From assembly GCF_014206975.1 (NCBI RefSeq), contig NZ_JACHOU010000005.1, positions 124,001 through 188,000 on the forward strand: a stretch of DNA of 64,000 bases, given 5' to 3'. The stretch is from Aminobacter aganoensis (lineage in GTDB: Bacteria > Pseudomonadota > Alphaproteobacteria > Rhizobiales > Rhizobiaceae). Shown one piece after another: positions 42,950 through 53,571 of this stretch (the stretch's first letter is position 1; each line of letters opens with the position of its first letter). Below the pieces are notes generated by a model that was not told where the DNA came from, ran no database searches, and was given only the letters and a program-made list of their open reading frames with translations. The translations under genes and the position numbers were made by a program.

Positions 42950-43274
42950 GCCCGCCTTGCCGGACAAACGGCCCGGCGGCGCCAATCGTGCCGCCGGGCA
43001 GCATCCGCAAGCAGCTTTCCGCCTGCGAACAGCGCCGGGCGCCAGCACAGGCCCCCGCTCTTCTGGCGCTGGCCTCACATCGTCTTTTGCGATGCAGCAT
43101 CAATAGCTTCGAACACTTCGCGGCTGCTTCTACGACCAAAGTCATAATCCCAAAGCAGCGATGGATAACGCCCGCCTCCCGGCGTTATCACTTCGACCGT
43201 CGTTAGGTTCGGCGGATTCGCGCGGAGATTGCTCTCCAGGCCCTTTACCGCCGGCACTCTGGGAGGAGACAATT
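42950..43274. other. 325-bp gap upstream of the MHS transporter
   Basis: No gene is seen. The stretch 43075-43165 is relatively AT-rich and probably holds the transporter promoter; no clear -35/-10 pair or dyad was identified. Confidence 0.4.
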
Positions 43275-45161
43275 ATGGCAATTTCGGCAACCGCCGGCGC
43301 TACCCGTCGCGGCATGTCGCGAGAAGAGAAGAAGGTCATCTTCGCTTCCTCGCTCGGCACCGTCTTCGAATGGTACGATTTCTACCTTTACGGTTCACTC
43401 GCCGCCTTCATCGGCGCGACCTTCTTCGCCTCGTATCCCGAGGCGACGCGCAACATCTTCGCGCTGCTCGCCTTCGCCGCCGGCTTCCTGGTGCGCCCCT
43501 TCGGCGCGCTGGTCTTCGGCCGCATCGGCGATCTCGTCGGCCGCAAATACACCTTCCTCGTCACCATCCTGATCATGGGCCTGTCGACGTTCTTCGTCGG
43601 CCTGCTGCCCGGCTCGGCCACCATCGGCATCGCCGCCCCGATCATCCTGATCGTGCTGCGCATGCTGCAGGGCCTGGCGCTCGGCGGTGAATATGGCGGC
43701 GCTGCGACCTATGTCGCCGAACACGCCCCCGACGACCGCCGCGGCTACTACACCTCGTGGATCCAGACCACGGCGACGCTCGGCCTGTTCCTGTCGCTGG
43801 TCGTCATCCTGGTGGTGCAGAGCTGGCTCGGCAAGGAGGCCTTCGCCGCCTGGGGCTGGCGCGTTCCGTTCCTGCTTTCCTTCATCCTGCTCGGCATCTC
43901 GGTGTGGATCCGTCTATCGCTGTCGGAATCGCCGACCTTCCAGCGCATGAAGGAAGAGGGCAAGGGCTCCAAGGCGCCGCTGTCGGAAGCCTTCGGCCAG
44001 TGGAAGAACGCCAAGATCGCCCTGCTCGCGCTGTTCGGCCTCACCGCCGGCCAGGCCGTGGTGTGGTACTCGGGCCAGTTCTACGCACTGTTCTTCCTGC
44101 AGAACGTGCTCAAGGTCGACGCCCAGGCGGTCAACATCATGATCGCGATCTCGCTTCTGCTCGGCACCGGCTTCTTCGTGCTGTTCGGCTGGCTGTCCGA
44201 CAAGATCGGCCGCAAGCCGATCATCATGGCCGGCCTTGCGCTCGCCATCGTCACCTACTTCCCGCTGTTCAAGGCGCTGACCTGGGCCGCAAACCCGGCA
44301 CTCGCCACCGCCCAGCAGAACGTTCGCGCCACCGTCACTGCCGCTCCCGGCGACTGCAAGTTCCAGTTCAACCCGGTTGGCACCGCGAAGTTCACCACCT
44401 CCTGCGATATCGCCACGTCGTTCCTGACCAAGAACTCGGTTCCCTATGACGTCGTCGCGACGGCTGCTCCGGGCACCCCGGCAACCGTCAAGATCGGCGA
44501 GGAAACCGTCACCTCCTATGACGCCATCGCCGCCGGCGATGCCGCCAAGGCGAGCGACGCTGCCTTCGTCAAATCGGTCAACATCGCCCTCCACGACGCC
44601 GGCTATCCGCTGGTCCGTGGTACGGCCAAGGTTGCCGACCAGAAGCTCGACGCCTTCATCGCCGCCAATCCGGAACTGAAGCTCGACGCCGCCGCGGTCC
44701 GCGCCGGCGAAAAGACCACCGTTCCGACCGAACAGGCGATCAAGGACAAGCTGGTCACCGCCGAAGAGGCAGCCGGAGCTCCGGAGGTCGGGTTCTTCAA
44801 CATCCCGGCCGGCGGCAGCTTCGCCATGGTCGCCGACCCGGCAGCCGTCAGCTGGCCGATGATCATCGCCATCCTCACCGTCCTGGTCATCTACGTGACC
44901 ATGGTCTATGGCCCGATCGCGGCGATCCTGGTCGAGATGTTCCCGACCCGCATCCGCTACACCGGCATGTCGCTGCCCTATCACATCGGCAACGGCTGGT
45001 TCGGCGGCCTGCTGCCGGCAACCGCCTTCGCCATGAGTGCTGCGGCCGGCGACATCTACTACGGCCTGTGGTACCCGATCGCGATCGCGGCGATGACGCT
45101 CATTATCGGCACGCTGTTCGTCAAGGACACGCTCGGCACCGACCTCAACGCCAAGGACTGA
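43275..45161 (+). CDS. MFS transporter of the metabolite:H+ symporter (MHS) family, with a large insertion
   Basis: The 628-aa protein starts SLGTVFEWYDFYLYG, the signature of ProP/ShiA/KgtP-like symporters for organic acids and betaines. GRIGDLVGRKYTFLV is motif A, and a second copy FGWLSDKIGRKPIIMAG occurs between helices 8 and 9. Ordinary members have about 430-550 residues. Here residues about 340-520 form an extra hydrophilic, Ala/Lys/Asp-rich segment (with two cysteines) between helices 9 and 10 or so, probably outside the membrane. After it, helices resume with MIIAILTVLVIYVTMVYGP and end in a conserved PTRIRYTGMSL. The ATG follows GGGAGGAG. Confidence 0.88.
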   Translation: MAISATAGATRRGMSREEKKVIFASSLGTVFEWYDFYLYGSLAAFIGATFFASYPEATRNIFALLAFAAGFLVRPFGALVFGRIGDLVGRKYTFLVTILIMGLSTFFVGLLPGSATIGIAAPIILIVLRMLQGLALGGEYGGAATYVAEHAPDDRRGYYTSWIQTTATLGLFLSLVVILVVQSWLGKEAFAAWGWRVPFLLSFILLGISVWIRLSLSESPTFQRMKEEGKGSKAPLSEAFGQWKNAKIALLALFGLTAGQAVVWYSGQFYALFFLQNVLKVDAQAVNIMIAISLLLGTGFFVLFGWLSDKIGRKPIIMAGLALAIVTYFPLFKALTWAANPALATAQQNVRATVTAAPGDCKFQFNPVGTAKFTTSCDIATSFLTKNSVPYDVVATAAPGTPATVKIGEETVTSYDAIAAGDAAKASDAAFVKSVNIALHDAGYPLVRGTAKVADQKLDAFIAANPELKLDAAAVRAGEKTTVPTEQAIKDKLVTAEEAAGAPEVGFFNIPAGGSFAMVADPAAVSWPMIIAILTVLVIYVTMVYGPIAAILVEMFPTRIRYTGMSLPYHIGNGWFGGLLPATAFAMSAAAGDIYYGLWYPIAIAAMTLIIGTLFVKDTLGTDLNAKD

Positions 45162-49752: not shown

Positions 49753-50160
49753 TTACCCAGCCTTGATGTCGACATGCCACCACTTCGGCCGCCCGCCGCG
49801 GAACGAGTGGGCCGTCGGCTTGAATTCGAGCGAGCCGGGCTTGTCGAACGCCCCTACCAAAAGCGCCACGACCGGCGCGTCGTCGATGGCGCCGAGCGAA
49901 CTACCGCAGGAGGCACAGAAAGCGCGGCTGGAATAATCCGACGAGCGATAGACCGACGGCGCGCCGCCCGGCCCGGTCCAACTCACCTTGTCGCTGGCGA
50001 ACTCCACCCAGGCGGCGGTCAGGGCGCCGGTGTGACGCTGGCAGATGCGGCACGAGCAGGTATGCGGCTTGCCGGCCGGGCCAAGCGCCTGGAACCGGAT
50101 GGCACCGCAAAGGCACCCTCCGCCATGGATCTTCGGCCTCGCTGCCGGTGTCTTGCTCAT
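49753..50160 (-). CDS. GFA (glutathione-dependent formaldehyde-activating-like) family zinc protein
   Basis: This 135-aa protein has the cysteine ladder of the family: GGGCLCGAIRF, HTCSCRICQRHTGA and FCASCGSSLG, which together bind zinc. FKPTAHSFRGGRPKWW is a typical end, where the aromatic residues shape the pocket. Biochemical role is uncertain in bacteria: true glutathione-formaldehyde activity is disputed for many. The ATG at 50160 is taken because the zinc motif starts just after it; the frame stays open upstream in a gene-poor region. It ends 3 bases past msrP on the other strand. Confidence 0.85.
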   Translation of the reverse strand: MSKTPAARPKIHGGGCLCGAIRFQALGPAGKPHTCSCRICQRHTGALTAAWVEFASDKVSWTGPGGAPSVYRSSDYSSRAFCASCGSSLGAIDDAPVVALLVGAFDKPGSLEFKPTAHSFRGGRPKWWHVDIKAG

Positions 50161-50520: not shown

Positions 50521-50634
50521 AAAAAAGCCGGATCCAAGAAGATCCGGCTGAGTTTGTTTGGAAGTGCCGATTAAGGCTAACCTCCAGAGGGGAACACTCG
50601 AGGGCGCTAATGGGAGGAGGAACGCGCCCTGGAG
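50521..50634 (-). ncRNA. abcR1: AbcR-type (alpha-r15) trans-acting small RNA
   Basis: On the minus strand a transcript of about 115 nt is predicted. Its first hairpin has stem AGGGCGC/GCGCCCT (50630-50624 with 50607-50601) and a 16-base loop with CCUCCUCCCA (from 50620 down), an anti-Shine-Dalgarno sequence and the CUCCCA motif of the AbcR family. An outer stem CTCCAG/CTGGAG (50634-50629 with 50587-50582) closes it. The 3' end is a strong terminator GCCGGATC-TTCTTG-GATCCGGC (50548-50527) with six U residues. A promoter lies just upstream. In Sinorhizobium, AbcR RNAs lie beside lsrB; here lsrB is 800 bases away, past an ICMT gene. AbcR represses ABC-transporter mRNAs with Hfq. Confidence 0.8.
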
Positions 50635-50641
50635 ATGGTCA

Positions 50642-50672
50642 ATATATGTGCTCTCCATGCCCAACAAACAAG
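50642..50672 (-). promoter_or_regulatory. Promoter of the AbcR-type RNA
   Basis: On the minus strand CTTGTTT (50672-50666) and CATATAT (50648-50642) are separated by exactly 17 bases. This matches the alphaproteobacterial CTTGAC-N17-CTATAT form. Transcription would start near 50634, just before the first hairpin. Confidence 0.65.
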
Positions 50673-50893
50673 CATCTATTTTGCAACGCACGCATGCAAA
50701 AAGGCGCGAGCTGTGGTCCAACAATGTTAGAGGCCCGATAGGACCAGAATTACCGCCGAAAACCGGCAGATATCGATGCTGCAATGCACATCACAAGACG
50801 CGCTGACGGCAAAAAGGCCGCCGAATTCCGTGCTGCAGTGCAATGCCGCCGGTTCGGGCAGCGGACGATCATTGTTGCGGCAGAACCGGCATC

Positions 50894-51457: not shown

Positions 51458-52354
51458 TCAGAAGGCCCAGCTGCGCGCCTTGGAGATGACGAAGTCGCGG
51501 AACACATGCAGCTTAGCCTGTTCCTTCATCGTGTCCGGATAGGCGAAATAGGTGTCGAAGGACGGCACCTCGGTTTCGGGCAGGAGCTGCACCAGCCCGT
51601 CATCCTTGCCCACGACATAGTCGGGCAGCATGGCGATGCCGGCACCGGTCTGCACTGCCCGCTTGATCGACAGGATGTCGTTGATCTGCAGCGTCGGCAC
51701 GCGCTGGCCGCCCTCGAAATCGCCCACCGTCTCGAGCCAGTTGAGCTCGCTCAGATGCGTCGGCACCGGCACGCCGAAGGTGACGATGCGGTGGCTCTTG
51801 AGTTCGGCGATCGACGCCGGCTTGCCGTATTTGTTGACGTAGGCTGGCGAGGCATAGAGGTGGAAATGCACGGTGAACAGCCGGCGCTGGATCAGGTCGG
51901 GCTGCTGCGGCTGGCGCAGGCGGATGGCGCAGTCGGCCTGGCGCATCGTCAGGTCGAGTTCCTCGTTGGCGAGGATCAGCTGCAGCTGGATGTCGGGATA
52001 GAGTTCGAGGAACTCCTGGACGCGCTCGGTCAGCCAGCCGGCGCCGAGGCCGACGGTCGTCGTCACGCGCAGCACGCCCGACGGCCTGTCCTTGGTCTCG
52101 GTCAGCCTGGTCTTGATCGTCTCGAGCTTCATCAGCACGTCGTGGGCAGTGCGAAACAGCATGTCGCCCTGCTCGGTCAGCACCAGGCCGCGCGCGTGGC
52201 GGTGGAACAGCGGCACGCCGATGTCGTGCTCAAGCGCGCTCACCTGGCGTGAAATGGCCGACTGCGACAGCCGCAGCGTCTCCGCCGCATGCGTGAAAGA
52301 ACCAGCCTCCGCCGCAGCGTGGAACACGCGCAACTTATCCCAATCCAACGCCAT
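51458..52354 (-). CDS. lsrB: LysR family regulator LsrB/VtlR-like
   Basis: This 298-aa LysR-type protein has the N-terminal winged helix (LRVFHAAAEAGSFTHAAETL, LSQSAISRQVSALEHDIG) and a substrate-binding domain with a cysteine near residue 145 (RQADCAIRLRQPQQPDL). Position next to trxB and lrp, with lps genes beyond, is the same as that of LsrB in Sinorhizobium, a redox and lipopolysaccharide regulator; Brucella VtlR is the orthologue and activates abcR2. That makes control of the nearby AbcR-type RNA a reasonable inference. It lies 32 bases downstream of trxB, same strand, likely an operon. Confidence 0.8.
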   Translation of the reverse strand: MALDWDKLRVFHAAAEAGSFTHAAETLRLSQSAISRQVSALEHDIGVPLFHRHARGLVLTEQGDMLFRTAHDVLMKLETIKTRLTETKDRPSGVLRVTTTVGLGAGWLTERVQEFLELYPDIQLQLILANEELDLTMRQADCAIRLRQPQQPDLIQRRLFTVHFHLYASPAYVNKYGKPASIAELKSHRIVTFGVPVPTHLSELNWLETVGDFEGGQRVPTLQINDILSIKRAVQTGAGIAMLPDYVVGKDDGLVQLLPETEVPSFDTYFAYPDTMKEQAKLHVFRDFVISKARSWAF

Positions 52355-52386
52355 TTTTCCCCTCTTATGCCAGGCGTCTGATCGGC

Positions 52387-53361
52387 CTATTCGGCCGCTT
52401 CGCGATGTACTTCAATTCCCGCCAGGTACTTTTCGGCCTCAAGCGCTGCCATGCAACCGAGGCCGGCCGCCGTCACCGCCTGGCGATAGATGTCGTCGGT
52501 GACGTCGCCCGCGGCAAACACGCCGGGCACGTTGGTGCGCGTCGAGTTCGCCTCGGTCCAGAGATAACCGTTCGGCTTCTGCTTCAGCTTGCCGACGAAC
52601 AGTTCGACCGCCGGCGCATGGCCGATCGCCACGAACACGCCGTCGGTCGCCATTTCGGTGATCGCGCCGGTGTGCACGTTCTTGAGCCTGACGCCGTTGA
52701 CCGACGGCGGCAGCGGCTTCTGCGCCGCAGCACCGACGATCTCCTCGACCGCCGAATCCCAGATCACCTTGATGTTGTCCTTGGCAAACAGCCGCTCCTG
52801 CAGGATACGCTCGGCGCGGAAATGGTCGCGCCGGTGCACCACCGTCACCGTCTTGGCGAGGTTGGAGAGGTAGAGCGATTCCTCGACGGCCGAATTGCCG
52901 CCGCCGACCACCACCACGTTCTTGCCGCGGTAGAAGAAGCCGTCGCAGGTGGCGCATGCCGAAACGCCAAAACCCTGGAACACCTGCTCGGAGGGCAGGC
53001 CAAGCCATTTGGCCTGGGCGCCGGTGGCGATGATCAACGCGTCGGCTGTGTAGACGGTGCCGGAATCGCCCTTGGCGCGGAACGGCCGGACGTCGAGGTC
53101 GACCTCGGTGATGATGTCGTGGACCATCTCGGTGCCGACATGCTCGGCCTGCGCCCGCATCTGGTCCATCAGCCAGGGCCCCTGGATAGGCTCGGCGAAG
53201 CCGGGATAGTTCTCTACCTCGGTGGTGATCATCAGCTGGCCGCCCTGCTGCATGCCGGCGACGAGCATCGGCTTGAGCATGGCGCGCGCCGCATAGATCG
53301 CTGCCGTGTATCCGGCAGGACCCGAACCGATGATAAGAACTGGCGCATGTTTGGCGGTCAT
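52387..53361 (-). CDS. trxB: Thioredoxin-disulfide reductase
   Basis: The 324-aa flavoenzyme reduces thioredoxin with NADPH. The FAD site IIGSGPAGYTAAIYAAR starts near residue 9, the redox-active pair is in ACATCDGFFY, the NADPH loop is VVVGGGNSAVEESLYLS, and the FAD-end motif VFAAGDVTDDIYRQAVTA is intact. The ATG at 53361 is chosen because the conserved sequence starts a few residues later; an ATG at 53382 gives seven more residues. trxB-lrp proximity and trxB-lsrB order are conserved in rhizobia. Confidence 0.96.
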   Translation of the reverse strand: MTAKHAPVLIIGSGPAGYTAAIYAARAMLKPMLVAGMQQGGQLMITTEVENYPGFAEPIQGPWLMDQMRAQAEHVGTEMVHDIITEVDLDVRPFRAKGDSGTVYTADALIIATGAQAKWLGLPSEQVFQGFGVSACATCDGFFYRGKNVVVVGGGNSAVEESLYLSNLAKTVTVVHRRDHFRAERILQERLFAKDNIKVIWDSAVEEIVGAAAQKPLPPSVNGVRLKNVHTGAITEMATDGVFVAIGHAPAVELFVGKLKQKPNGYLWTEANSTRTNVPGVFAAGDVTDDIYRQAVTAAGLGCMAALEAEKYLAGIEVHREAAE

Positions 53362-53571
53362 CGTAAGGGCCTTCGTGGTCAATGGAAAAAGCAGCCCCCC
53401 GCAAAACGGGGCGCAGATCGCCTCTAATCTAGGTGTTCACCCCTGCCCCGCGCAAGGCGACAAGATGTTACTCCCCCGAAAGCTTGATCTTCGGGGGAAC
53501 GCGCCCATGCCCGGCGTCGATTTCCTCAGCTTGGGCTTCCCAATGGCTGCGAGTGGTTTAATGACAAGGAC

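Follow-up and report, generated by a model that had tools for sequence, protein, structure and literature searches.

Does the minus strand downstream of lsrB in Aminobacter aganoensis code for a regulatory RNA, to which family would it belong, and what would it act upon? These questions arise from a window of 64 kb (the whole stretch of DNA analysed here), for which an initial annotation had proposed an AbcR-type (alpha-r15) small RNA of about 115 nt, to be checked by an Rfam covariance search. This search is positive: positions 50636–50521 of the window (minus strand) match the ar15 family (RF02345) with 49.1 bits (E 5.6e-7, cut-off 40) over the full length of the model (1–112 of 112). It is the sole match within the 64 kb to reach a gathering score, a modest one compared with the up to 116 bits found in relatives. 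The start given by Rfam, 50636, is 6 nt downstream of the -10 element, so that an RNA of approximately 116 nt (50521–50636) is expected, close to the length proposed before.

Structure and conservation of the RNA

Folding of a 117 nt RNA yields -48 kcal/mol, compared with -28 ± 3.7 kcal/mol for dinucleotide shuffles (z -5.5), none of 200 of which was as stable. From the 5' end, the fold consists of stem-loop SL1, an unpaired linker with UGUUCCCCUC, stem-loop SL2 and a terminator. SL1 is a strong hairpin and its 16 nt loop holds CCUCCUCCCA, the anti-Shine-Dalgarno (anti-SD) loop that had been described from the sequence. In comparison to the Rfam ar15 consensus SL1 is shorter, and SL2 (50559–50586, minus strand) has an extra inner GCC/GGC stem according to both the fold and the covariance search. 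The Rho-independent terminator (50521–50549, minus strand), backed by covariation, has a 10 bp GC-rich stem, a 4 nt UCUU loop and the six U residues noted earlier, with the first U forming a base pair at the bottom of the stem. Two anti-SD motifs are unpaired in this fold: aSD1, CUCCUCCC (50612–50619, minus strand), in the loop of SL1, and aSD2, UUCCCCUC (50587–50594, minus strand), in the linker. They overlap with the motifs M1, CUCCCA (50616–50611), and M2, GUUCCC (50595–50590), which have been described for the AbcR RNAs of Brucella (PMC5461406); only the former had been pointed out before. The covariance match and the three hairpins, with aSD1/M1 in the loop of SL1 and aSD2/M2 between SL1 and SL2, agree with ar15/AbcR.

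To study conservation we aligned 43 sequences, the window and 42 of 67 distinct ones, with 12 near-identical sequences and 13 of the Rhizobium/Martelella type omitted. Loop and linker are almost invariant while the stems vary, with aSD1 almost invariant and aSD2 invariant. For 25 chosen base pairs, 96.7% of the cells can pair, and two-sided changes occur in 14 of them, distributed over SL1 (five of six pairs), the SL2 helices (three of ten) and the terminator (six of nine). None of 500 shuffles matched any of five covariation measures, and pairing falls to 31–49% when the partner is shifted by one to three columns. The terminator helix (helix 4) is paired in 99%. Within SL2, helix 2 is paired in 95% with two-sided changes in two of seven pairs, helix 3 in 91% with one of three; the latter value of 91% applies to the inner GCC/GGC stem, which shows little covariation.

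A single ar15 copy is found in the genome of A. aganoensis, as in each of nine other Aminobacter genomes searched. At E ≤ 0.001, 34 of 61 genomes have ar15, in some cases as two to six copies, and none of 14 control genomes has it; absence of ar15 is defined here by this search with strict filters together with the core pattern. With a laxer threshold (E ≤ 1), matches appeared in eight of the 14 controls, none of them over the cut-off. Comparison thus establishes the RNA as a member of the AbcR/ar15 family, of the AbcR1 subtype judged by its upstream region (see below), and the predicted transcript of about 116 letters looks genuinely regulatory. As a member of a known family it is unremarkable and recoverable through a plain Rfam search.

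Two further observations concern the borders of this family. Beside lsrB of L214 and L216, which belong to two further families of the order, ar15-like RNAs are located for which the Rfam model remains silent at E ≤ 0.001, and the RNA family may reach beyond what RF02345 detects. Moreover, a record titled Bacillus subtilis SK6B4 (L134) holds an alphaproteobacterial lsrB (70%) and an ar15-like RNA; its label or assembly looks wrong.

Promoter, LsrB box and genomic location

A minus-strand promoter had been proposed upstream of the RNA. Its elements are located as stated, with CTTGTTT as the -35 element (50666–50672), a spacer of 17 nt and CATATAT as the -10 element (50642–50648), but a scan with the strict sigma70 consensus detects none of this (no promoter found, 0.3 expected). 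Support for the promoter comes from its alphaproteobacterial form and from its conservation in the ten Aminobacter copies examined (the one studied here included): CTTGTTT is identical and CATATA present in all ten.

Further upstream we found an element missing from the initial annotation, a predicted LsrB/VtlR box, GCATGCGTGCGTT (50685–50697, minus strand), which perfectly fits GCAT-N3-TG-N3-T. Hence the range annotated first, 50521–50672, includes the elements it had named but ends short of this box (50697–50685). The box is enclosed by a wider dyad, TTTTTGCA-N9-TGCAAAA (50679–50702, minus strand), read from the sequence. Counted from 50636 the box extends from -61 to -49. A box of this form is described at the same offset in the abcR1 promoter of Sinorhizobium meliloti, whose activity drops more than 22-fold when the box is removed (PMC8844928). 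The bare consensus is short and not rare (five matches in the window, 7.9 expected by chance), therefore the weight rests on position and conservation. At promoter spacing the box has one occurrence in the 5.76 Mb genome, and it is located in the expected 13 nt offset range in 64 out of 80 sRNA copies, compared with a mean of 0.11 over 37 upstream control ranges. These 80 copies are 79 from relatives plus the window, one extra core match in locus L106 being omitted. The box is present in each of the ten Aminobacter copies; 12 of the 16 copies without it read, by eye, AG in place of the consensus TG. The inner form of the dyad, TGCATNNNTGNNNTGCA, is likewise found a single time in these 5.76 Mb, and thus there is no second site of that strict form comparable to vrsA in Agrobacterium tumefaciens (PMC7486931).

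The nearest same-strand gene upstream is lsrB/vtlR (51458–52354, minus strand; Pfam HTH_1 and LysR_substrate), in agreement with the neighbourhood proposed before; it codes for a LysR-type regulator, the presumed activator, and ends 821 nt upstream of the sRNA. One opposite-strand methyltransferase-like gene is located in between. Directly upstream of lsrB, at a distance of 32 nt, lies trxB (52387–53382, minus strand; TIGR01292, 397.9 bits, cut-off 343.45), whose true start is probably an internal ATG rather than that of the listed ORF. The closest named relatives of the LysR gene are found in Aminobacter niigataensis (98% identical, L062), followed by Mesorhizobium (up to 93%). In 74 out of 80 lsrB loci, covering about 4 kb on each side of the gene, the ar15 core follows lsrB on its own strand; the mislabelled-looking L134 adds one locus by eye, with a slightly shorter core.

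This conserved position bears on the possibility that the RNA serves the downstream GFA-family gene (ORF from approximately 50142 to 49753) as a 5' leader or attenuator. The gene is on the same strand and, with the ATG at 50142 taken as its start, begins about 380 nt past the terminator, whose hairpin, placed between promoter and gene, could act in attenuation. However, a GFA homologue is present in only one of the 80 loci (L062), compared with the 74 holding the sRNA core, and a full-length match to a family of trans-acting sRNAs counts against a leader as well. On these two grounds we reject this explanation as extremely improbable.

More closely related is the question whether the RNA is of the AbcR2 type, that is RpoH1-dependent and stress-induced, or of the ar14/NfeR1 type (RF02344). 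Both anti-SD motifs are common to AbcR2 (PMC8844928), and a permissive search of 401 bases returned ar14 with 27.2 bits besides two weaker matches. All three are under their cut-offs, that of ar14 being 58.8 bits, and the genome holds five other ar14 copies above it. The RNA resembles NfeR1, which in S. meliloti is also activated by LsrB, in its anti-SD loops, but has one CCUCC loop and not three (PMC10746234). The position of the LsrB box speaks against AbcR2: a box at -61 to -49 followed by a sigma70-type promoter is the mark of AbcR1, and for the S. meliloti abcR2 promoter, which depends on RpoH1, no motif in addition to the RpoH1 -35 and -10 elements is reported (PMC8844928). The box position and the sub-cut-off ar14 score led us to reject both assignments as very unlikely. 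The AbcR1 type also has a bearing on expression, as the initial annotation had held that the lack of a transcript in stationary phase would count against the RNA. This criterion appears misplaced: AbcR1 of S. meliloti, the LsrB-dependent sibling, is described as high in exponential growth, and AbcR2 as the RpoH1-dependent RNA of stress and stationary phase (PMC8844928).

The five ar14 (NfeR1-type) copies were located at C4:257709-258136, C15:22967-23086 and C13:105611-105726 (L233–L236) of the same genome. Three of them are in tandem within about 430 nt and have repeated CCUCCUCCC motifs. The anti-SD RNA repertoire of A. aganoensis is rich.

Compared with the systems described so far, the locus is closest to AbcR1 of S. 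meliloti, with identical aSD1 and aSD2, the LsrB box at the same place, a sigma70-type promoter and a location near lsrB (PMC8844928, PMC3712013). Unlike there, a single copy replaces the tandem AbcR1/AbcR2 pair, and the methyltransferase-like gene separates lsrB from the sRNA. As reported for AbcR1 and VtlR of A. tumefaciens, the activator gene adjoins the sRNA and the box reads GCAT-N3-TG-N3-T, here with one ar15 copy (PMC7486931). AbcR1 and AbcR2 of Brucella abortus share M1 and M2 with our RNA but are two copies on two chromosomes (PMC5461406).

Anti-SD motifs and uptake genes

For predicting targets, the start regions (-25 to +6) of annotated genes of the Aminobacter aminovorans plasmid pAA01 were paired with aSD1 and aSD2. 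They replaced a crude gene calling on 464 kb which had misplaced many starts, that of lsrB included; Mesorhizobium pMLa was left out of the statistics. The classes (ABC substrate-binding proteins, SBPs; other ABC genes; others) were assigned by us from product names, and the first set retains two genes whose start codons, ATC and ATA, are unusual. In this set of 276 starts, the median aSD1 pairing is -15.6 kcal/mol for 23 SBP genes compared with -10.0 kcal/mol for 195 others (p 2.6e-4), and the preference persists when SD strength is removed (p 6e-4). None of 100 shuffled versions of aSD1 matched this difference. The 58 other ABC genes of the set were no different in their aSD1 pairing. A held-out set of 128 starts, with only five SBPs, gave p 0.010 raw and 0.097 after SD correction; pooling of 28 SBPs and 301 others gave p 2.5e-5 and 5.8e-4, respectively, values that concern complementarity only. 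GGGAGG precedes ten of these 28 SBP genes and 30 of the 301 others. For aSD2, no comparable SBP bias was found among the 276 starts (p 0.028 raw, 0.47 corrected; nine of 100 shuffles equalled the raw difference). At the level of predicted pairing, the aSD1 preference for SBP starts is what AbcR function predicts.

Within the genome of A. aganoensis itself, exact 9-mer matches to aSD1 number 13, eight of them with an ORF of at least 80 amino acids; these are too few, therefore no enrichment is claimed. The matches include an ABC ATPase (relatives are so annotated) as well as genes that on inspection of their sequence look like a TRAP small permease, an MFS transporter and a permease. One such site is in the window: TGGGAGGAG (43260–43268, plus strand), 6 nt before the ATG at 43275 of an MFS-transporter-like gene, a predicted target.

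The lsrB start site and a possible feedback loop

A scan for complements of aSD2 before start codons in the same genome yielded 45 matches, compared with 11 for the reversed pattern. One of the matches is lsrB itself, with AAGAGGGGAAAAATG at 52366–52352. Besides, the start region of a dnaA-like gene (by eye; C3:364154-364168, L174), GAGGGGAACGAAGTG, has an SD sequence complementary to aSD2. The lsrB site was noticed only after the scan and was therefore tested in other ways. Its SD sequence, AGAGGGGAA (52357–52365, minus strand), is a perfect 9 nt complement of the sRNA linker at aSD2 and is predicted to pair with this segment with -16.6 kcal/mol at 37 °C from an unpaired state of the mRNA. 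In a two-strand fold the same nine lsrB letters pair with sRNA positions 43–51 with a gain of 7.7 kcal/mol, while other parts rearrange. The pairing ranks 4th of 277 when set beside the 276 annotated starts, 2nd after correction for SD strength, and 4th of 405 with the held-out set added. GAGGGGAA precedes none of the 276 annotated starts and GAGGGG five of them, compared with ten of ten Aminobacter lsrB genes and 34 of 80 loci for the former and 50 of 80 loci for the latter.

Is this more than a good ribosome-binding site? That the complementarity reflects nothing but a conserved ribosome-binding site, unrelated to the sRNA, has in our estimate a slightly better than even chance. GAGG itself is an SD core, and orthologs share ancestry. 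On the other hand, over 81 loci (window included) lsrB has a mean pairing energy of -15.8 kcal/mol and an SD-corrected residual of -5.75 kcal/mol, with 69% at -15 kcal/mol or better, compared with +0.58 and 0% for trxB (81) and +0.40 and 1% for lrp (79) of the same loci; among the 276 background starts 5% reach -15 kcal/mol. In a second set of relatives with 40 lsrB genes, 17 with an ar15 core close by have a mean of -14.9 kcal/mol, compared with -7.5 kcal/mol for 20 without it; at -12 kcal/mol or better are 13 of the 17 but three of the 20. The residual difference has p 6e-5 (6e-5 to 2.5e-4 under other groupings), in statistics which ignore descent and with groups differing in family. Three genomes were set aside, two with ar15 away from lsrB (G025, G035) and one with a sub-cut-off ar15 1 kb off and no core (G019), and G055 (L221) was grouped as lacking ar15 despite a match under the cut-off at a distance of 25 kb.

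In many genomes that lack the sRNA, lsrB is not preceded by a real SD. When only real-SD starts (16S pairing of -6 or better) are considered, 16 with the core and 8 without, the link to the sRNA fades to p 0.053, as expected if the site serves the ribosome only. Strong lsrB sites also exist without a core nearby (L057, -20.5; L227, -13.6; L230, -14.1; L098), and weak sites exist despite a core (L043, -11.9; L048, L053 and L059, -9 to -10). Among four genomes of the same family lacking ar15, a very strong site is present in one and absent from three. In L214, which belongs to another family and gave no ar15 match at E ≤ 0.001, core and AAGAGGGGAAAG are both present. Judged from these comparisons, the complementarity at lsrB is unusual and conserved, and its tie to sRNA presence is suggestive only.

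A negative feedback loop conserved in Rhizobiaceae, in which LsrB activates abcR1 and aSD2 silences lsrB translation behind trxB, is therefore a tentative proposal, its odds having been lowered with the fading of the link among real-SD starts to somewhat below even. Such a loop might damp the redox input to LsrB after transcription and leave thioredoxin reductase untouched. Since trxB and lsrB may be co-transcribed, silencing lsrB alone requires that the sRNA pairs at an internal site of the mRNA. For A. tumefaciens, LsrB is reported to autoregulate the trxB-lsrB operon, and expression of lsrB is termed constitutive (PMC11975290). An RNA feedback loop has a precedent in NfeR1 and NtrBC of S. 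meliloti (PMC10746234). In the AbcR and LsrB literature as far as covered by our search there is no report of an AbcR1-lsrB loop; the MAPS target list of S. meliloti may already include lsrB as an AbcR1 ligand.

Sequence, structure, covariation, box position, synteny and aSD1 complementarity to SBP starts were computed here, and with the lsrB loop kept apart we consider it very probable that the locus codes for a single-copy, chromosomal-type AbcR1 ortholog, activated by LsrB and silencing uptake genes by anti-SD pairing. By analogy with the studied relatives, from which LsrB activation, Hfq use and translational silencing are taken, the neighbouring LsrB probably turns on the sRNA and thereby restrains the uptake of nutrients. 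LsrB would bind the box at -61 to -49 and activate the sigma70-type promoter; the 116 nt RNA, probably dependent on Hfq (the genome has one hfq gene), would end at its own terminator, and its two single-stranded anti-SD motifs would block mRNA start sites. With aSD1 the RNA would chiefly hit genes for ABC substrate-binding proteins, perhaps along with other genes of uptake, and with aSD2 a further set, which may include lsrB.

These findings extend the well-studied AbcR family to Aminobacter. The single-copy form, also found in Mesorhizobium loci, offers a simpler setting for the study of AbcR1 than the two-copy models. AbcR1/2 were stated in one report as not discovered in Mesorhizobium huakuii 7653R (PMC5596092); in M. 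huakuii NBRC 15243 (L138, position ~5739) we find the ar15 core downstream of lsrB together with an LsrB box. New here, as a prediction, is the lsrB Shine-Dalgarno sequence as a target of aSD2. If true, the feedback on lsrB would account for how a redox regulator supplying a very large RNA regulon limits its own level.
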